A DNA stretch of 64,000 nt, taken from contig JAFTJQ010000082.1 in the NCBI GenBank assembly GCA_017456285.1, positions 62,001-126,000 on the forward strand, read 5' to 3'. The stretch is from Lentisphaeria bacterium. GTDB taxonomy: Bacteria; Verrucomicrobiota; Lentisphaeria; Victivallales; Victivallaceae. The notes beneath the pieces were generated by a model. The model did not search any database, had not been told where the DNA came from, and saw only the letters and a program-made list of their open reading frames with translations. Positions 44,033-53,947 of this stretch are shown in pieces. Every line of letters starts with the position of its first letter. Within the stretch, counting starts at the first letter, position 1. A program made the translations under genes and the position numbers.

Positions 44033-45634
44033 ATGAAGAGATGTTTGTCATTATTGGCACTTTTAGTTCTTGGCATCAGCGGTTGTCAGAGTTTCAAAGA
44101 GCCGCCGATTGCCACCACCGAGAATTTGTTTCAAGCTCGCAAACGTGACGGCGCAGATGATCTGTTGAAAGACATCAAGGTATTAACTATCGCGGATGCA
44201 CAGAGAATTGCACTCAAAAATAATCCTGATTACAAATCAGCCGCTTATGCTGTAAATGCAGCTAAAATGGCTTATTATCAGGCATTAGGTGCATATTCGC
44301 CGACTTTCAATGCTTCTTTCAATATGTCAAATACTCATACATGGGATGCACATAATGTGAAGAATGCCACTGATAATGACATGAATATGCGTTTCGGCAC
44401 CAATACTTCCATTTCTGCATCATGGCTGCTTTTTGACGGGCTCTCCAGATACTTCAATGCTAAAGCCGCTAAAGCCGGAGAGAAGTATCAGCAGGCTATG
44501 GAAGAAAATGCCGCAAGAAATCTTTTGAGTGGTATCGTTTATGCTTATAACTCAATTCTGCTTGCTCGTGCTGAACTCGAAATCGCTAAATCTGACTTGG
44601 AGTTCCAGCAGATTTGTTTGAAAGAAACCGAACTTAAGCAAGAGGTCGGAACTGTGCCGTTTAGTGATGTGCTGAACTTCAAAATTCGTGCCAGAAGTGC
44701 AGAGAATGCCATGCTTGTAGCAGAGCGTTCATACGCTTTGGCAACTTATGCTTTGGCAGTATTAATGGGTTATCCTGACGGTAAAATGCCGGAGTGGATC
44801 ACATTTGATGAAATTAAAGTTGATGTCGATGCAGTTCTCCCCAATGTCGAAGTTTATCTCGATGCCGCTTTGGCAAATCGTCCTGACTTGCGTGCGATGC
44901 GTGAGAACTTGAATATCCGCAAGTACAACAAATACAGTGCTTACGGAGCATATTCTCCGACAATCAGTGCCTTTGCTGAGTTTAATGTTTCAACAAGCAA
45001 CACTCGCTTCTATCACCGTCACGGCAGTAAAATTAATCACACCCACTCAACTACTCCGAGTTTGAGTTACGGCGTAACTGCTAATTGGACAATTTTCAAT
45101 GGTTTCATCCGCTGGAATAAAATTCGTGAAGCCCGGGCAAATGAGGCTATTGCCAAATTTAATGTTGTAAGTTCATGGTTAGCTGTCATTCAGGAAGTGC
45201 GTGATTCATATACCAACTACATTTTCAGCGTAAATCAGGCGAAACTTTACGAGCAGATTCTTGCTTACAGTACCGAACAGCGTGATTTGGTTGCTAAAGA
45301 GTATGAGGCAGGTACAATCGGTATCACCCGCTTGAATGAGGTGCAGAATGATTTGATTAATGCCGAGTCAACTCTCGTTTCTGCTTACTTGAATATCAAA
45401 AACGCTAAAGTTCAACTCGATACTGCGGCAGGTTTGATTACCCGTGATTATTACTTGAAAGCTGAAACTGACGTTCCCGAAGCAGAAAATACCAATATTG
45501 AAGTTCAGCATGGTAAGGAAATTATTGTTAAAACTAACCAGTCCGCATTTATTAAAGACTTGAATGAGATTGCTGAAGAAGAGGCGGAAGTTACTACTCA
45601 AGACGGCAAAGTTGTTGCTCCTGAAGCAAAATAA
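44033..45634 (+). CDS. TolC-family outer-membrane efflux lipoprotein
   Basis: A 533-residue protein with lipobox I-S-G-C18. Two repeated halves of the TolC/OEP fold are seen: D-A-Q-R-I-A-L-K-N-N-P-D-Y-K-S-A near 54 and again L-A-N-R-P-D-L-R-A-M-R-E-N near 280. Each is followed by a Y-G/A-A-Y-S-P-T strand and long helices. It forms a trimeric channel for efflux or type I secretion. No membrane-fusion protein or pump gene lies beside it, so its partner is encoded elsewhere. An acidic tail of ~50 residues follows the last helix. RBS AAGGAG. Confidence 0.9.
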   Translation: MKRCLSLLALLVLGISGCQSFKEPPIATTENLFQARKRDGADDLLKDIKVLTIADAQRIALKNNPDYKSAAYAVNAAKMAYYQALGAYSPTFNASFNMSNTHTWDAHNVKNATDNDMNMRFGTNTSISASWLLFDGLSRYFNAKAAKAGEKYQQAMEENAARNLLSGIVYAYNSILLARAELEIAKSDLEFQQICLKETELKQEVGTVPFSDVLNFKIRARSAENAMLVAERSYALATYALAVLMGYPDGKMPEWITFDEIKVDVDAVLPNVEVYLDAALANRPDLRAMRENLNIRKYNKYSAYGAYSPTISAFAEFNVSTSNTRFYHRHGSKINHTHSTTPSLSYGVTANWTIFNGFIRWNKIREARANEAIAKFNVVSSWLAVIQEVRDSYTNYIFSVNQAKLYEQILAYSTEQRDLVAKEYEAGTIGITRLNEVQNDLINAESTLVSAYLNIKNAKVQLDTAAGLITRDYYLKAETDVPEAENTNIEVQHGKEIIVKTNQSAFIKDLNEIAEEEAEVTTQDGKVVAPEAK

Positions 45635-46354: not shown

Positions 46355-46765
46355 CTACTCCCCACAGCATTTATCGCACAATCCACGGTAATTCAAGTGA
46401 ATTTCATCTACTTTGAATTTACCCTCAAAATTGCAACGCTCCTGTAATCCACTCATAAAAATATCGTGAATACTTCCGCATTTTTTGCACTTGAAGTGGG
46501 CGTGCAATGTGATATTGGCATCATACCGCATCTCGCCGTCTTCAATAATCACACCTTGAACAACTCCCTTTTCAATGAAAAGTTTCAAAGTATTGTAGAC
46601 GGTGGTTTTGGACAGCATCGGGTAATCACCGATTAAGTCATTGTAAATTGTATCGACTGTCGGGTGATTACGATACTTATCCAAATAGGAGTATATTGCC
46701 AAGCGTTGAGTTGACGCTTTGATTGACGCTTCCCGTAAAAAATTTACTATTTCAGTATTTGTCAT
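46355..46765 (-). CDS. perR: Peroxide-sensing Fur-family repressor
   Basis: A 136-residue Fur-family regulator; start at 46765 with AAGGAG upstream. Metal residues are visible: H34, D82, H88, H90 and D101, at a constant offset of three from B. subtilis PerR H37, D85, H91, H93 and D104. C93/C96 and C130/C133 form the structural zinc site. The aspartate at position 101 (glutamate in Fur) supports PerR over Fur. The winged-helix DNA-binding region is T-V-D-T-I-Y...T-T-V-Y-N-T-L-K. It lies downstream of reverse rubrerythrin, 108 bp away, and so probably represses its own transcript through the box at 47495. Confidence 0.88.
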   Translation of the reverse strand: MTNTEIVNFLREASIKASTQRLAIYSYLDKYRNHPTVDTIYNDLIGDYPMLSKTTVYNTLKLFIEKGVVQGVIIEDGEMRYDANITLHAHFKCKKCGSIHDIFMSGLQERCNFEGKFKVDEIHLNYRGLCDKCCGE

Positions 46766-46828
46766 AATATACTCCTTTCGCTCCTCTTCATCTTTTGCCC
46801 CGTTAAATATTACTCCTCTTTGACAAAT

Positions 46829-46862
46829 CGGCAATGCTTCTCCTCTCTTCTCCGCATTGCCG
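46829..46862 (-). terminator. Hairpin between rubrerythrin and perR
   Basis: A perfect 9-bp stem, CGGCAATGC (46829-46837) with GCATTGCCG (46854-46862), 16-nt loop. On the minus strand it is not followed by a strong U tract. It may reduce perR expression relative to the rubrerythrin gene, or protect the upstream mRNA. Confidence 0.5.
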
Positions 46863-46873
46863 TTTACGCCTGC

Positions 46874-47428
46874 TTATTTGCCGAAGTAGCGTTTCAAAAG
46901 CCCTGCGAAAGCCGCACCGTGGCGAGCTTCATCCTTGCACATTTCGTGTACGGTATCGTGGATCGCATCCAAATTGAGCATTTTTGCGCGTTTAGCGATA
47001 GCCAGTTTGCCTTCGCAAGCACCGGTTTCAGCGGCGACTCGAGCTTCGAGGTTTTCTTTGGTTGAAGTTGAAACGCATTCGCCCAAGAGTTCGGCAAATT
47101 TAGCGGCATGTTCAGCCTCTTCAAAAGCAATTCTCTTGTATGCTTCAGCGACTTCGGGGTAGCCCTCACGATCAGCCTGACGGCTCATTGCCAAGTACAT
47201 ACCGACTTCGGTGCATTCTCCGGTGAAGTGTGCTCTCAAGCCCTCAAGGATCTCTGCATCGACATCTTTAGCAACTCCGATTCTGTGTTCATCGGCAAAA
47301 GAGACTACTCCGGTATCCTCTGCTTTTTCGATAAACTTTGATTTCGGAGCTTTGCACTGGGGGCAAGCTTCCGGAGCCTCGTTACCTTCATGGACATAAC
47401 CGCAGATTGTACATACAAACTTTTTCAT
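46874..47428 (-). CDS. Reverse rubrerythrin (NADH peroxidase type)
   Basis: A 184-residue protein with the rubredoxin domain first (C6-T-I-C9 and C22-P-Q-C25) and the ferritin-like di-iron domain second (E-C-T-E-V-G, E-A-E-H-A, E-T-G-A-C-E, K-D-E-A-R-H-G). This domain order is opposite to classical rubrerythrin and matches the clostridial reverse rubrerythrins, which reduce hydrogen peroxide with NADH-derived electrons. Cytoplasmic. It implies an anaerobe that meets oxygen. RBS AAAGGAAAG. It heads a transcript with perR. Confidence 0.93.
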
Positions 47429-47494
47429 AATTCTTTCCTTTCGTTTAATCAGTATTAATTTATTGTTTTTGCATTTTTCGTAATAATTATTAGT

Positions 47495-47509
47495 TTGTAA
47501 TCATTACAA
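47495..47509 (-). promoter_or_regulatory. PerR-type operator
   Basis: A perfect 7-1-7 palindrome: TTGTAAT, one base, ATTACAA. It has the layout of Fur/PerR boxes and covers the expected transcription start of the rubrerythrin promoter, starting five bases after its -10. It fits repression by the adjacent PerR. Confidence 0.78.
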
Positions 47510-47514
47510 TATTA

Positions 47515-47542
47515 AATATATTTCAATTTTTGAAAAATGCAA
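47515..47542 (-). promoter_or_regulatory. Promoter of reverse rubrerythrin-perR
   Basis: Minus-strand TTGCAT (47542-47537), 16-bp spacer, TATATT (47520-47515), directly upstream of the palindromic operator. Confidence 0.72.
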
Positions 47543-47593
47543 ATCAAAAATTAAAAAAAATTCAAAAATTTTTGATTTTTTTTGATTTTTTGC

Positions 47594-47637
47594 AAAAAAA
47601 ATCCCCCGAAAGTGCAATTTTTTACAATTTCAGGGGG
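47594..47637 (-). terminator. Terminator of the def-to-mannosidase operon
   Basis: On the minus strand, CCCCCTGAAA pairs with TTTCGGGGG (one bulged base), followed by eight U (47601-47594). It lies 23 bp after the mannosidase stop. Confidence 0.8.
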
Positions 47638-47659
47638 TGAAACAACTAAAAATTAATTA

Positions 47660-50110
47660 TTAATAGTATTTCTCTAAGTGGTCTATTACCAATGAGTTGC
47701 GAAGCAGGTCAATGTCGCAGTCACCTTTAGGTACAAACTCTAATACAACTTTGTCCTGCGGAGCAAGCAAAATACTATTGTCGCTGAAAGTTCCCTTGAT
47801 TCCGACCGCATCAAGTGTGACATAAAGTGCAGGTGCAGTAGTTGCTAACTCAACAAAGAATCTGCCGTCTTGCTCACTGATTTTGGCTGAAACTTGAGCT
47901 TTCTGCAATTTGAGTTCCTTGTAAATAGTTGCAAAGAACTCGTTTTTGTGAGTGGTATTATCAGTTTCATTTTCGGTAAGTATTTCATAATAAACATCTT
48001 CTGACTTAAAGTTATTATCAAATTCCGCACCGTAATTGCGAACTAATTGACTGCTTGTAGGACTTAATTCCCAAGTCGAAACATCGCTTGATAGAATTTC
48101 TCCGCTGATAATTGAACGGCAATTAACGGTTGCTTTGACTTTGATAGGATACGGTAAGTCATTGATTACAAAGTGCTTAATGTCGCCGTCAGTGTCTTTG
48201 AACATCACTCCTGAAACGGGAGCAAAAAAGCGTCTGGCGTGGTAATTAAGCTGTTTCCACTTGCCGCCATGCTCGATACTTGCCCATGAAACAGTCGGCC
48301 AGTTATCATTCAACTGCCAGTAAATCGCACCCATACAGCGAGGCTGGTGTGCATGCCAGTATTCGACACCTGCTTTAATCGCAATTGCCTGCTGAACCTG
48401 AGATTGATAGACCAGCCCTTCAATGGTTAACGGCAACTTGAAAAGCATTTCAAACATACCCAAAATCGGTGCATTATGCTTGAAACACTTTTGACGGAGT
48501 GACATTGTGCTTGAGAATAAATTTAATTCTTCGGGCGGGCAGAAGCTTTTTATCTGCTCCATTGACGGGAACGCTTCAAATCCGAATTCAGAACAAAATC
48601 TGGGTTTAATGGTGTAGTAAGCGTCAAAGTTTTTACCGCCGTTCCAAACTTCCCAGAAGTGCATATCGCCGCGGGTGTCGTCTTTCCAGTTATCTCCGAA
48701 ATTACCCGGTCCGCCGCATGGACTGCTCGGCCAAAAGACCTGTTCGACATCATGCTTGCCCATAAATTCAGTTAAATGTTTATTTACTGCAATAAACCGC
48801 TGCAAGTTTTTCTCGTTATTCTCCGGACCGAACCAACGGGTTGCGCCCAAGCACTCATTATCTCCGCAGTAAATTGCAATACAAGCATGAGAACGCAATC
48901 TCGGAATCTGGTAATCAATCTCTTCTGCGACCTCATCCATAAGCCATTTATCAGCAGGATACATCGCACAGCAGAACATTAAATCCTGCCAAATCAAAAT
49001 ACCTTTTTTATCGCAAAGGTCATAGAATATATCTTTCTCGTATTGTCCGCCGCCCCAAACTCGAAGCATATTCATATTGGCTTTAACCGCAGAATCAAGC
49101 AAGTCATTATAAACTTCTTCTGTTTGGCATGATGGCATCGCATCGCAGGGAACAAAATCCGCTCCTTTGCCGAAGACTCTTACTCCGTTAACTTTGAAGT
49201 AGAATGCTGAACCGATCTCATCCTCTTTTGTTACAAGTTCCATTGTCCGCAACCCGGTGAGTTTAGTTACTTCCATGGTGGAGTTTTTGATTGTCAAATC
49301 ATACAAATTTTGTTCGCCGTAACCATTGGGATACCACAATTTCGGCTTATCAACATTGAAAACACAAACAATTTTATTCATGCCTTTTGAAAGTTTGCAG
49401 TTAATTTTTTTAACTTCTCCGTCAAACTCAAAAGTAAAACTATCCTCGCAATTTTCCGGAGCAAAAATATCTGCAACAGCAGTTAATTCAACTTTGCCGT
49501 TTTCATGTTTCTGTTTATTATAAAGTGAGTCAATTCGACTTTTTTTGACACCGACAAGTTTAATTTCATCATAGATACCGCAAACAGGTAATTGTACACC
49601 CCAGTCCCAACCGCCGTGGCACATCGTCTTTCTGATAAGATTTGTTCCCTGCAAAATTGTATGACGCAACATACCATAGTCAGGTGCAATTTTTTTGCGT
49701 TCACTAATTTCAATCATCGGATTTTGAATATAGAATTTAATCAGGTTGCCTGATTTTTTCAAAAGTTTTTTGACTTCAACTTTTTGTGGGGCAAATTGAT
49801 TGTGTGATTTAAAAACTTCTACACCGTTAAGCGTGCAGGTGCAGAAGGTGTCAATCATTGACATAGTTAAATAGATATAGTTATTCGTTAATAACTCCTC
49901 TGGCACATCAAAAGTTTGGGTGAACTCCCAGTCATGTTTCCAAATTTCCTGCATAAGAAGTTCATTTTTGCCGTAATACGGGTCGGGAATAATTCCTGCT
50001 TGCAAAAGTGCGTGGTAGTTATCGCCGGGTAACTCTGCTTCGATAGTTTTGCCGCCCAAATAGGTACTTCCCATTTGCCATTTTTTGTCAAAAATAAAAG
50101 TGTTTTCCAT
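47660..50110 (-). CDS. GH2-family beta-mannosidase
   Basis: An 816-residue enzyme. The start is the ATG at 50110, with GGAGG just before it. The N-terminal sugar-binding and immunoglobulin-like domains are followed by the TIM barrel. The acid/base is E419 in G-D-N-E-C-L-G and the nucleophile E508 in C-S-E-F-G-F-E-A-F-P. M-C-H-G-G-W-D-W-G-V-Q-L-P and L-R-V-W-G-G-G-Q-Y-E are typical of the beta-mannosidase branch of GH2. There is no signal peptide, so it would cleave mannose from imported manno-oligosaccharides in the cytoplasm. It is the last gene of the minus-strand operon, 14 bp after the M50 gene. Confidence 0.9.
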   Translation of the reverse strand: MENTFIFDKKWQMGSTYLGGKTIEAELPGDNYHALLQAGIIPDPYYGKNELLMQEIWKHDWEFTQTFDVPEELLTNNYIYLTMSMIDTFCTCTLNGVEVFKSHNQFAPQKVEVKKLLKKSGNLIKFYIQNPMIEISERKKIAPDYGMLRHTILQGTNLIRKTMCHGGWDWGVQLPVCGIYDEIKLVGVKKSRIDSLYNKQKHENGKVELTAVADIFAPENCEDSFTFEFDGEVKKINCKLSKGMNKIVCVFNVDKPKLWYPNGYGEQNLYDLTIKNSTMEVTKLTGLRTMELVTKEDEIGSAFYFKVNGVRVFGKGADFVPCDAMPSCQTEEVYNDLLDSAVKANMNMLRVWGGGQYEKDIFYDLCDKKGILIWQDLMFCCAMYPADKWLMDEVAEEIDYQIPRLRSHACIAIYCGDNECLGATRWFGPENNEKNLQRFIAVNKHLTEFMGKHDVEQVFWPSSPCGGPGNFGDNWKDDTRGDMHFWEVWNGGKNFDAYYTIKPRFCSEFGFEAFPSMEQIKSFCPPEELNLFSSTMSLRQKCFKHNAPILGMFEMLFKLPLTIEGLVYQSQVQQAIAIKAGVEYWHAHQPRCMGAIYWQLNDNWPTVSWASIEHGGKWKQLNYHARRFFAPVSGVMFKDTDGDIKHFVINDLPYPIKVKATVNCRSIISGEILSSDVSTWELSPTSSQLVRNYGAEFDNNFKSEDVYYEILTENETDNTTHKNEFFATIYKELKLQKAQVSAKISEQDGRFFVELATTAPALYVTLDAVGIKGTFSDNSILLAPQDKVVLEFVPKGDCDIDLLRNSLVIDHLEKYY

Positions 50111-50124
50111 TTTTCCTCCGAAAA

Positions 50125-50763
50125 TTATGTTAAAATATAATAACAAAAATTAATAATCGCATCCGCAAATTGATAAATATTATCCATAAAATGAATTGCC
50201 AGCAGCAGAACAACAATCGAAGCCCCTTTGATAAATTCAGAGTTGCGAATTTTATCCGCACTCACAAAGTTACGAACTATCGCCCATCCGTCAAATCCCG
50301 GCACCGGCAGCATATTGAAAAAAAATAAAATTAAATTCATTACAGTTCCGTAGTAAAACATTAACCACGCTTTTTTTAATATCTCAATATCCCCATCAGA
50401 CGATTGGGCAATATGCCAAATCCAAAAGTTTATCCCAAAAAAGACAATTGCTAAAAATAAATTAGTAAATGGTCCTGCAAGCGAAACAATTAAATCACTC
50501 GATTTACGGCGAAAATTGGCTGGATTTACAGGGACACTCCCCCAGCAAATGCCGATCAAAGCCAACATGAATAATGAGAAAATCCCCATTTGCTTTAATG
50601 GATTCAAAGTAAGGTGTCCATTCATTGCCGCGGTATCATCCCCCTCAATGAGAGCAATTTTTGCATGCATGTACTCGTGACAACAGATAGAAAAAACAAT
50701 AAAAAGCACCCATGAAAAAAAGAAAAACGGATTTTCCCACAACGCTGTAATGAAAAAATTCAT
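50125..50763 (-). CDS. Site-2 (M50) family membrane metalloprotease
   Basis: A 212-residue membrane protein. The zinc motif H29-E30-Y-M-H33 lies in the first membrane helix and N-M-L-P-V-P-G-F-D158-G supplies the third ligand. N-P-L-K-Q-M-G and A-G-P-F-T-N-L are typical of the compact rhomboid-like S2P subfamily without PDZ domains. It cleaves substrates inside the membrane; the target is unknown. It is separated from folD by two bases. Confidence 0.88.
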   Translation of the reverse strand: MNFFITALWENPFFFFSWVLFIVFSICCHEYMHAKIALIEGDDTAAMNGHLTLNPLKQMGIFSLFMLALIGICWGSVPVNPANFRRKSSDLIVSLAGPFTNLFLAIVFFGINFWIWHIAQSSDGDIEILKKAWLMFYYGTVMNLILFFFNMLPVPGFDGWAIVRNFVSADKIRNSEFIKGASIVVLLLAIHFMDNIYQFADAIINFCYYILT

Positions 50764-50765
50764 GA

Positions 50766-51656
50766 TTAATCAATCTTATTATGTCTTTTGCAGGAGTTAA
50801 TCGTATTTCTCATTAAAATCGCAATAGTCATCGGCCCGACACCGCCCGGAACCGGGGTGATGTATGACGCAACTTCAGCAACTTCATCATATTTGACATC
50901 GCCGACAACCCGATAACCCTTGGGGGCATTTTCATCGGCGACACGATTAATGCCAACGTCGATAACCACTGCTCCCTCTTTGATCATATCGGCAGTAACA
51001 AATTCGGCTTTGCCGATTGCAGCAATGACAATATCGGCGGTTTTGACAATTTCTTTCAAGTTACGAGTTGCGGAGTGTACGCAAGTTACAGTTGCATTGG
51101 CATTTTTATTTTTCTGCACCATGAGTGCCATCATCGGCTTGCCGACAATATTGGAGCGGCCGATAATAACTGCATGCTTCCCTGAAACTTCAATTCCTGA
51201 CTTCTCAAGCAAAATCATAACCCCATAAGGAGTGCAGGGGAAAAATCCGTCTTCTTTGCCGATAAGCATTTTTCCGACATTTTCGGCATGGAAGCAATCG
51301 ACATCTTTTGAGGGCAGAATTGCTTCAACGACCTTTTCCTCATCAATCTGCGGCGGTGGCGGAGACTGCACCAAAATTCCATGAATTGAGTTGTCATTAT
51401 TGAGTTTATCAATAAGTTCCAGCAACTCCTCCATGGTAGCGTTTTTGTCAAGCACATACTTCTGTGAATTGATTCCCAATTCCTGACATTTTTTGACCTT
51501 TGAATTGACATAAAGCTGCGAAGCCGGGTCTTCCCCGACCAAAATTACTGCCAGCCCCGGAGTAATTCCCATTGCTTTTAATTTATTTATCTCGTCTGCA
51601 TTTTCCTGATTGACAATAGCTGATATTGCTTTGCCGTCAATAATTTTAGCACTCAT
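50766..51656 (-). CDS. folD: Methylene-THF dehydrogenase/cyclohydrolase
   Basis: A 296-residue FolD. The start at 51656 has GGGGGA upstream. The motifs [14 protein letters not shown] (~36-49, with the catalytic lysine) and [16 protein letters not shown] and [10 protein letters not shown] are all present, with the C-terminal [11 protein letters not shown]. The enzyme interconverts methylene-, methenyl- and formyl-tetrahydrofolate in the cytoplasm, supplying formyl groups for purines and initiator fMet-tRNA. In an operon with def. Confidence 0.96.
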
Positions 51657-51673
51657 ATTTCCCCCATAATTTT

Positions 51674-52399
51674 TTAAAATGAAATATTCACATCGCCGCT
51701 GATTGACATCGGCGGCGGCATTAAAATAATTCCGATCTCCTCCGACCAATCACGTTCCCAAGAATTTAACATCAACGGTTCCGTCGGGTTGCCCCACGGA
51801 TTGAAGTCAACTATGTAGATTTCCTGATTAGAGGTAAAATAAATATCCATAACAATATCTTTTATCGGCAAATTCCAACTGATTTCATCGACGAAATTTT
51901 TTGCCATCTCCCAATAATTATTTTTTACTCCCTCCAGTCGGCGGAAGTGGCGAATCAAATAGTACTGGCTCATTGCCTTTAATTTGCCGTCTTTGATGAA
52001 AAGACGAAACTCTCTCGGTCGATTCATGCGACGGAAAGGGCGAATGGAGATATATTCGACTTCGCCTGCCGCCGCACTTTGGCGTACTTTGGTGCTTGAA
52101 GCCAAATTAAACCAGGCACTCTCCGCAGAGTAAACTGCACCGCGTTTGGTTTCAAATCGTTCAGTATCAGTCGGTGAACACAAGTCCACGCTGACAAAGC
52201 TGTTTCCGCTGATAAGCGACATCGCTTTGCGTAAATCCTTGATTGTCAAATCAACTGCAGACCCTTCACTCCCTTCGGTTTCGCCATTCGCCAATGCCTG
52301 AATTGCTTCACTCCGCAATTTGACAAATGATGTCATAAATGTTTTGCCCGCAAAAAAGGGATACCAATTAACCATTCTGCAAAAATTTTTCTCGTCCAT
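51674..52399 (-). CDS. Cdc123/D123-like ATP-grasp protein
   Basis: A 241-residue protein; start ATG at 52399 with GAAAGG nine bases upstream (an earlier TTG is less likely). The N-terminus [13 protein letters not shown] matches the W-Y-P-x-F-x-x-x-T opening of eukaryotic Cdc123. Later, [13 protein letters not shown] (~128-140), A-M-S-Q-Y (~142-146), I-V-M-D-I-Y (~182-187) and [14 protein letters not shown] (~196-209) match the Cdc123 ATP-grasp core, including the metal-binding Asp/Asn pair. In eukaryotes Cdc123 assists eIF2 assembly; bacterial relatives are predicted protein-modifying ligases of unknown target. It sits between a membrane protein and folD, in the def operon. Confidence 0.72.
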
Positions 52400-52417
52400 A
52401 ATAAAACCTTTCAATCG

Positions 52418-53326
52418 TTATTCAGTTTGCTCCCGATCTCTGACAAATGAATTTAATATCACCAGCAAATAGATCAGCCAGCCGAATGAAAATACTGTAT
52501 GATAACCGATAAACGGCAACTTGAATGCTTCAAATAATACTGAAACCAGCATCGCAGGAAAGCCTGCATAAATACTGACGGAAAAAAATGCTTTGAAATT
52601 CATATTGCTTATTTTCCCTACTCCGGTAATCGCATAAAAGATGGCAAAAATCAATGACGTAATCAGTAATTGCCAGAAGTACTGCACCCACATAGAGAGA
52701 AACTGCATAAATAGATAACTTGTTTTAATATCATCGGAATCGGGACACGGCAGTTGTGAAAAATCACATGGAGTAATTTGAGAATACTCCTTTTTCATGT
52801 AGGAATCAAGTTCCTTGTTGTTTTTGAAATTTCCGATTTCCGGAGTTTTGAATTTCTGCAGTGCGGCAAAATCAAAAAACATCACATTGCCCGAACTGTC
52901 ATTATTGAATTTAATGATGTTAAAAACTCCTTTGGGCAACCACAGCCAAGTAATTCCCGATGGATGAATATCCCGAAAATCAATCTCCTTGAAATCCGGT
53001 TCATAAACGACTTTTATTCGGTCATTAAGCATGAAATTAAAACTTTTATCTGCATTTTTCTTGGGATAAATGCCATCTTTGCGATTATCAAATCCGCCGG
53101 AAAACTCATCTAATATCTGCATTTGGGGATTGATTTCTGATTCGATATTTTTTTTGCCGAGAGTGACGATTAATAGACTGCATATACCGCTCATTAGGAA
53201 GAGATGCCACAACGTTCTCAATAGACTGTGACGGCATAATTTCTTAAAAATTTTTGTGCCTGCACAACTGCCTTTGACAGCATTCCAGAGCGAAATTTTT
53301 TCAAATTTTTTTGTTTCTACTTCCAT
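52418..53326 (-). CDS. Membrane protein of unknown function, DUF1189-like layout
   Basis: A 302-residue protein. One membrane helix lies near 37-57, then ~135 residues of likely extracytoplasmic domain (charged, with I-T-W-L-W-L-P-K-G-V), then four C-terminal helices (~205-295). This layout resembles DUF1189/YIP1-type membrane proteins, but I see no decisive motif. It overlaps def by 10 bp and ends 18 bp before the Cdc123-like start, so all three are co-transcribed. Confidence 0.6.
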   Translation of the reverse strand: MEVETKKFEKISLWNAVKGSCAGTKIFKKLCRHSLLRTLWHLFLMSGICSLLIVTLGKKNIESEINPQMQILDEFSGGFDNRKDGIYPKKNADKSFNFMLNDRIKVVYEPDFKEIDFRDIHPSGITWLWLPKGVFNIIKFNNDSSGNVMFFDFAALQKFKTPEIGNFKNNKELDSYMKKEYSQITPCDFSQLPCPDSDDIKTSYLFMQFLSMWVQYFWQLLITSLIFAIFYAITGVGKISNMNFKAFFSVSIYAGFPAMLVSVLFEAFKLPFIGYHTVFSFGWLIYLLVILNSFVRDREQTE

Positions 53327-53907
53327 GGGCGATTGTACTCTTTTCTCTTGCCGTTTTTCTTCAAGCGGAAAAGCTTAAATTCAATATTCTGCCGATCCTC
53401 TTCGGACATGCGGTCAACAAATAAATAGCCGTCCAAGTGGTCAAGTTCATGCTGGATACAGCGTCCTAATAAGCCGCCGCACTCATACTCAAAAAAATTT
53501 CCTTGCAAGTCTTGGGCTTTTAATTTGACAATATACGGACGCTTGACATTACCGTAAATACCGGGAACGCTCAAGCAACCCTCATCGTAATCGCACAAAT
53601 CACTTCCGAAAGCGGTAATTTCAGGATTGACCAAAACCAGCGGCATTTTGTCAAGCAGCATCACTTCGCCGATTGACTTATTGGGCTGTTCTGGATTATC
53701 AGGCACGCCGAGAACTACCAGACGTTTGGAGATACCGATTTGCGGAGCCGCCAAACCGATTCCGTCAAAATGGTTCATAATTTCGACCATAGCGGCGGCA
53801 AGTTCAGCAAGTTTGTCGTCAAAAACGGTAACTTTTTCTGCTTTTTTGCCTAAAATTTCACTGCCGAAAGTTTTTACATTATATTTTTTCATTATATCAA
53901 CAAGCAT
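53317..53907 (-). CDS. def: Peptide deformylase
   Basis: A 196-residue metalloenzyme with the three family motifs: G-I-G-L-A-A-P-Q (49-56), E-G-C-L-S-V-P (109-115) and Q-H-E-L-D-H (152-157), which hold the metal ligands and catalytic glutamate. It removes the formyl group from nascent proteins. Start at 53907: AGGAG lies five bases upstream; a later in-frame ATG at 53892 is also possible. First gene of a six-gene minus-strand operon. Confidence 0.95.
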   Translation of the reverse strand: MLVDIMKKYNVKTFGSEILGKKAEKVTVFDDKLAELAAAMVEIMNHFDGIGLAAPQIGISKRLVVLGVPDNPEQPNKSIGEVMLLDKMPLVLVNPEITAFGSDLCDYDEGCLSVPGIYGNVKRPYIVKLKAQDLQGNFFEYECGGLLGRCIQHELDHLDGYLFVDRMSEEDRQNIEFKLFRLKKNGKRKEYNRPWK

Positions 53908-53947
53908 TTTCACTCCTGTAAATTAAAAATTATTTATCTTTTGATAA

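Follow-up and report, generated by a model that had tools for sequence, protein, structure and literature searches.

A class-wide Cdc123-like protein of Lentisphaeria that keeps its predicted metal residues and lacks a conserved basic pair

What does a protein of the Cdc123 (D123) family do in a bacterium, encoded close to the gene for peptide deformylase? The question is raised by a gene in a 64,000-nucleotide stretch of a Lentisphaeria bacterium genome (GenBank assembly GCA_017456285.1, contig JAFTJQ010000082.1, positions 62,001 to 126,000), the whole of which we call the window. Yeast and human Cdc123 are described as acting in the assembly of eukaryotic initiation factor 2 (eIF2) (PMC8844851, PMC12860950), and the second of these accounts presents Cdc123 as essential in eukaryotes and its use of ATP there as unsettled. 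We tentatively favor a reading in which the Lentisphaeria protein, here D123, is a single-copy, Cdc123-like, nucleotide-dependent client factor in protein synthesis or nascent-chain processing, which has kept the predicted metal half of its site and lost the basic pair predicted to hold ATP. The homology of bacterial proteins to CDC123 was already known in 2015; new here is a class-wide, housekeeping-like D123 subfamily whose nucleotide site is altered and whose C-terminus is conserved. A full-text literature search, with most subscription papers outside its scope, returned one paper centered on bacterial CDC123 (Burroughs et al., 2015; PMC4431377), and the term also occurs in phage and virus papers (PMC7824862, PMC11167607, PMC9503650). 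The features of the gene itself are:

51674..52399, minus strand: D123/Cdc123-fold protein of 241 amino acids, matched by Pfam D123
52166..52192, minus strand: codons 70-78 of D123, placed by gap-free alignment to human CDC123 and conservation counts
51677..51697, minus strand: GDVNISF tail, residues 235-241 of D123, conserved to the last residue

The reading frame is open from an ATG at 52399, with a Shine-Dalgarno-like stretch (GAAAGG) seven bases upstream of it; an in-frame TTG is also listed at 52414. An earlier note, made from the sequence alone, had called the product a Cdc123-like ATP-grasp protein. This was confirmed by matches to Pfam D123 (PF07065; E 1.2e-19, 71.1 bits, curated cut-off 24) and to human CDC123 (E 1.1e-10). 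The Cdc123 core motifs it had quoted are present, and the acidic and asparagine residues it took as ATP-grasp metal residues align with those of human CDC123. Structural comparison, which the note had proposed as a check, matched the predicted structure to the Cdc123 three-dimensional fold; residues 1 to 229 or 230 of the model align with the Cdc123 core. The fold assignment is near certain.

The conserved ATP-grasp lysine, which the same note had expected, was not found. In the gap-free stretch, human K104, N106, A109, R111 and D112 correspond to S70, D72, S75, T77 and D78 of the window protein, so that S70 and T77 occupy positions that hold lysine or arginine in other D123 proteins. Across a class alignment of 210 sequences (the window protein plus 209 others, with identical ends removed and near-copies remaining), position 70 is lysine or arginine in 0/210, and position 77 is threonine in 203 and lysine in one. 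D72 and D78 are present in all 210, and D72, P76 and D78 vary little or not at all. We compared these with 120 best matches to yeast Cdc123, the named ones being fungi and animals, and with 120 best matches to one Bacillota (Aneurinibacillus) D123, six of which have an organism name and are bacterial (the other-D123 set). Position 70 is lysine in 117/120 of the eukaryotic set and lysine or arginine in 120/120 of the other-D123 set; position 77 is lysine or arginine in 115/120 and lysine in 120/120, respectively. Because both other sets keep these residues, the loss of both is confined to Lentisphaeria among the sets compared. The class thus lacks the two basic residues that R2K ATP-grasp proteins have in the RAGNYA part, a strand-2 lysine and a lysine or arginine in the next loop. 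Burroughs et al. (2015) match K104, D233 and D246xN248 of human CDC123 to the ATP-grasp template (PMC4431377), and human R111 is described as interacting with ATP (PMC12860950); we read position 77, human R111, as the second basic residue of the 2015 account.

The metal side of the site is kept. D185 and D198 are each present in 209/210 class sequences, N200 in 208/210, E130 and R132 of the ExR motif in 210/210, and Q145 in at least 208/210, and the window protein has the full ExR, Asp and (D/E)xN set of catalytic and metal residues of the D123 family. E130, R132, D185 and N200 also occur in 120/120 of the other-D123 set. Position 198 divides the groups: it is aspartate, mostly followed by tryptophan (DxN), in 29/30 Lentisphaeria and in all 40 eukaryotes used (40 of the 120 rows entered this comparison), and glutamate in 120/120 of the other-D123 set, followed by tyrosine in 119 (ExN). 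A D123-like protein of a Sinorhizobium plasmid also has DxN, as Lentisphaeria and eukaryotes do. The DxN common to Lentisphaeria and eukaryotes is possibly a signal of shared ancestry, a view against which the Sinorhizobium case counts. The class also conserves basic residues of its own (R123 in 204/210, R129 in 209/210 and K85 in 197/210), positions 123 and 129 being mostly hydrophobic in eukaryotes. Judged from sequence, these three are likely replacements of the lost pair, and K85 could be a shifted substitute for one of its residues.

At the other end of the protein, 194/209 class tails stop exactly in SF (159 in VSF, 34 in ISF). This end is part of a GDVxVSF motif found also in the most divergent families; in 111/120 of the other-D123 set, nothing aligns with its last two positions. 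The tail is the least certain part of the structure model, its last blocks having predicted local distance difference test scores of 74 and 68. In human Cdc123 the C-terminal region connects the ATP and eIF2-gamma sites; by analogy, we would guess at a similar linking role for the Lentisphaeria tail.

We then determined how widely D123 is distributed. The class profile matched in 138 of 197 Lentisphaeria genomes, and in 64 of the 81 with at least 90% completeness and at most 5% contamination. Some matches are partial (such as genomes G026 and G076), and D123 is single-copy because the double matches, in G137 and G189, are fragments at contig ends. The Pfam D123 model, which is less sensitive than the class profile and misses class members such as G076 and G189, gave 97 matches in 387 genomes of the phylum, all of them in the window's own genome or in its family, order or class, and none in 14 control genomes at 1e-5. 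No related D123 locus was confirmed in viral contigs, and plasmids gave two distant matches, an Aneurinibacillus one that is D123 by Pfam and the Sinorhizobium one; a viral or plasmid origin was rejected on these results. Giant viruses contain Cdc123-fold proteins. An unrooted tree of 95 rows (30 Lentisphaeria, 24 of the 120 eukaryotic and 40 of the 120 other-D123 rows), in which the other-D123 rows are best matches to a single protein and a very long branch leads to the Sinorhizobium row, separated Lentisphaeria (100/97), eukaryotes (100/99) and the other-D123 set (99/91), with the window's order as one group (100/99). Lentisphaeria D123 does not group within eukaryotic CDC123, as an orthologue would, and the unrooted three-group tree does not tell which bacterial group, Lentisphaeria or another, is nearest to eukaryotes.

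The neighbors of D123 in the window are:

52418..53326, minus strand: membrane protein (mem) of 302 amino acids, distantly DUF1189/Yip1-like (Pfam PF06691, E 8.9e-8)
53317..53913, minus strand: peptide deformylase (def; Pfam PF01327, E 4.2e-49), the only match to its own sequence in its genome (E 0.001)
50766..51656, minus strand: folD (Pfam PF02882/PF00763), adjacent to D123 here and in none of the other loci tested
44033..45634, plus strand: TolC-like outer membrane efflux protein (Pfam OEP, E 1.1e-57)

A scan of public contigs gave 86 relatives of D123, of which the best 80 loci were kept. Their titles name Lentisphaerae, Lentisphaeria or members of these, apart from four uncultured bacteria (L023, L063, L070, L075); many of the genomes are probably identical to surveyed class genomes, and the two sets are not independent. 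Gene mem was present in 75/78 loci with at least 1,000 bases upstream of D123, and def in 68/77 with at least 1,700 bases. Taking starts from the longest open reading frame, the mem-D123 gap had a median of -4 bp and was below 30 bp in 61/75 loci, and the def-mem gap was below 30 bp in 68/68. The TolC-like cluster occurs in 50 loci; in most of these it lies upstream of def, either immediately or separated from it by gltX. Some D123 loci also contain gltX and rsmI, which encodes a 16S methyltransferase. One public locus without def and mem, L080, shares its gene arrangement with L129, from outside the window's order.

The earlier note had placed D123 between def with the 302-residue membrane protein and folD, and this is the arrangement in the window. 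Its proposed survey of homologues bore out def-mem-D123 in the window's order, though not as a universal arrangement in the class, and spoke against folD as part of the unit: a FolD query found it in 0/80 public loci and in neither of two same-genus loci, and a FolD partnership was rejected. Both same-genus loci read TolC-def-mem-D123, with TolC directly upstream of def. Unlike in these, the TolC-like gene of the window lies about 8 kb off on the other strand; a local rearrangement may have displaced it, and the same event may have put folD beside D123.

Elsewhere in the class these genes come apart. The mem profile matched in 168 of 197 genomes, and 14 further mem loci had def directly upstream in 12 and D123 in none. 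Nine of the 14 come from genomes without a D123 match (eight with def; some only 78-87% complete), and five from genomes whose D123 lies elsewhere (four with def). Since the pairings separate in this way, mem is the partner of def, and D123 joins the two in one order. Pairing of def with this fast-evolving DUF1189/Yip1-like protein is seen across the class, also without D123 (window 52418-53913; L139-L142, L144, L146, L147, L149-L153), and mem is a possible membrane partner of deformylase. In genus g28 (L139-L141), which is without D123, a gene that by eye is polyA-polymerase/CCA-like follows def-mem instead. For 18 loci outside the order (L117-L134), no same-strand def or mem was found within 6 kb of D123, two of these having less than 1 kb upstream. 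In family f13, five of six loci (L123-L127) have the order map-ffh-D123-AMP-ligase-pdxJ; in L123, map, ffh and pdxJ pass NCBIfam cut-offs and the AMP-ligase only that of Pfam. An AMP-binding ligase (acyl-CoA synthetase type) directly follows D123 in seven loci of three families outside the window's order (L123-L127, L130, L131).

Evolutionary rates were compared in the 57 loci, out of 81, with complete copies of all four genes. Median pairwise identity was 0.51 for D123, the slowest of the four, 0.48 for Def, 0.44 for TolC and 0.22 for mem, and D123 distances tracked those of the operon genes (Mantel r of 0.59 with Def and with TolC, 0.66 with mem).

Def, Map and Ffh all work on nascent chains. 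D123 lies beside one or two of these three in each of two distinct settings, which suggests a link. From its linkage to def in one order, and to map and ffh in five genomes of a single family, its client would belong to translation or nascent-chain processing. We propose that D123 may be a cytosolic, Cdc123-like, nucleotide-dependent factor, which would bind a client that takes part in protein synthesis or in the processing of nascent chains and would help to assemble or modify it. The altered site would still bind Mg-nucleotide, probably through R123, R129 and K85, and the conserved tail would run alongside the client or cover the active site. It is likely that D123 does a protein-handling job related to that of Cdc123 but altered; this mechanism for it is put forward tentatively, at rather less than an even chance. 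The client is not eIF2-gamma in the window genome because its C-terminal family is absent there: PF09173 gave no match at E 1, and 4 of 14 control genomes pass its cut-off. SelB, the bacterial relative of eIF2-gamma, passes its cut-off in 7/197 class genomes as against 138 for D123 and was rejected; either SelB or the def-linked membrane protein is unlikely as the client. Of the roles suggested in the earlier note, the modifier or assembler of a translation component thus gains some support, and the labeler of a membrane target is disfavored by the distributions. A more specific picture, a bacterial Cdc123 system with an arginine-based ATP grip and a free, invariant VSF end that docks the client at the nascent-chain processing machinery (Def, Map, Ffh), as the counterpart of the eIF2 assembly step, we regard as distinctly improbable.

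Several observations weigh against the client-factor reading. No client was found among eIF2-gamma, SelB and mem, and with both basic residues lost, the protein could just as well bind no nucleotide at all. D123 is absent from 17 of the 81 good genomes and can be lost, since family f21 has no listed match in the class-profile survey of 197 genomes and genus g28, within the window's order, is without it in 4/4 genomes, def-mem being kept in the three loci read. Within the class, D123 is not linked to def or to map-ffh everywhere; it has unrelated neighbors in other families, and the D123-Def correlation (0.59) is below that of TolC with Def (Mantel r 0.84). The same loss of basic residues would suit a catalytically dead Cdc123 relative that serves as a binding scaffold, its acidic residues being structural or metal-binding only: the pair is missing in all but one of 210 members and the fold is kept. 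However, conservation of D185, D198, N200, E130, R132 and Q145 in at least 208/210 is unusual for a dead site, and R123 and R129 are conserved in the Lentisphaeria class only, so we consider a scaffold unlikely. An active ligase, as predicted for the CDC123 family by Burroughs et al. (2015), that would attach amino acids or a peptide to a protein, possibly to its own C-terminus, is also unlikely, if slightly less so. The ATP-grasp fold with ExR, which is tied to amide-forming members in PMC4431377, the retained DxN metal motif and the free, conserved C-terminus are consistent with it; the class-wide loss of the R111 position and of the strand-2 lysine, predicted there to be catalytic, and the lack of any substrate gene consistently linked among the clustered neighbors argue against it.

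Two further explanations take their cue from context. The close and mostly overlapping position of mem next to D123 (75 of the 78 public loci long enough to show it, with a median gap of -4 bp) would fit a dedicated pair in which D123 labels, for example, the cytosolic tail of the membrane protein. This is very unlikely, given that mem adjoins def in genomes that have no D123 match or have D123 elsewhere, that nine genomes with D123 have no mem match (mem may be too diverged to detect), and that mem evolves far faster than D123. The mem C-terminal tails are acidic but by eye not conserved, and the tail was rejected as a conserved substrate. Least probable of all is a toxin-system or host-directed effector. 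Such roles match the contexts given for bacterial CDC123 in PMC4431377, and by eye the Sinorhizobium plasmid gene stands beside immunity-like and PAAR-like genes; but D123 is single-copy, slow, class-wide and in housekeeping surroundings, the class and the window's order each hold together in the tree, and there were no secretion genes among the eight window genes scanned. A defense role was rejected, there being no PADLOC match at E 1, a result that also counts against the toxin-system or effector reading.

A class-wide subfamily with the fold and metal site but without the basic pair, in a window genome with no eIF2-gamma domain, offers a natural experiment for learning which features of the site are important. 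A bacterial Cdc123 with the look of a core cellular gene, and not of an effector or an accessory to toxins, also bears on where eukaryotes could have acquired Cdc123.

Among known systems, eukaryotic CDC123/D123 is the eIF2 assembly factor (PDB 8phd, 4zgp, 4zgq). The human protein has K104, R111 and N106 where the window protein has S70, T77 and D72; R123, R129 and the GDVxVSF end are Lentisphaeria features, and the eIF2-gamma C-terminal family is absent from the window genome. Bacterial CDC123 was cast in 2015 as a toxin accessory or effector (Burroughs et al., 2015; PMC4431377). The type VI secretion system (T6SS)/polymorphic-toxin and Legionella-type proteins belong to the same Pfam family as the window protein, which differs in its single copy, its housekeeping neighbors and, at 241 amino acids, the lack of the long N- and C-terminal extensions of the Legionella type. 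VgrG, Hcp, PAAR and SUKH were not found in a Pfam scan of the eight window genes at 46355-53913, the other loci having been clustered and not scanned for these families. The Sinorhizobium plasmid gene (L157:23-2258) lies between genes that look by eye like a toxin fragment, an immunity gene and a PAAR gene, which is the T6SS context described in 2015. Far weaker structural matches to the window protein, at about 10% identity, are the ATP-grasp proteins RimK, LysX and D-Ala-D-Ala ligase. Other D123 proteins (e.g., of Zavarzinella, Aquisphaera and Brevibacillus) share Pfam D123, E130, R132, D185 and N200 with the Lentisphaeria protein; they differ in lysine or arginine at position 70, lysine at 77 and ExN in place of the DxN of Lentisphaeria and eukaryotes, mostly align nothing at the last two tail positions, and stand on a separate side of the tree (99/91).
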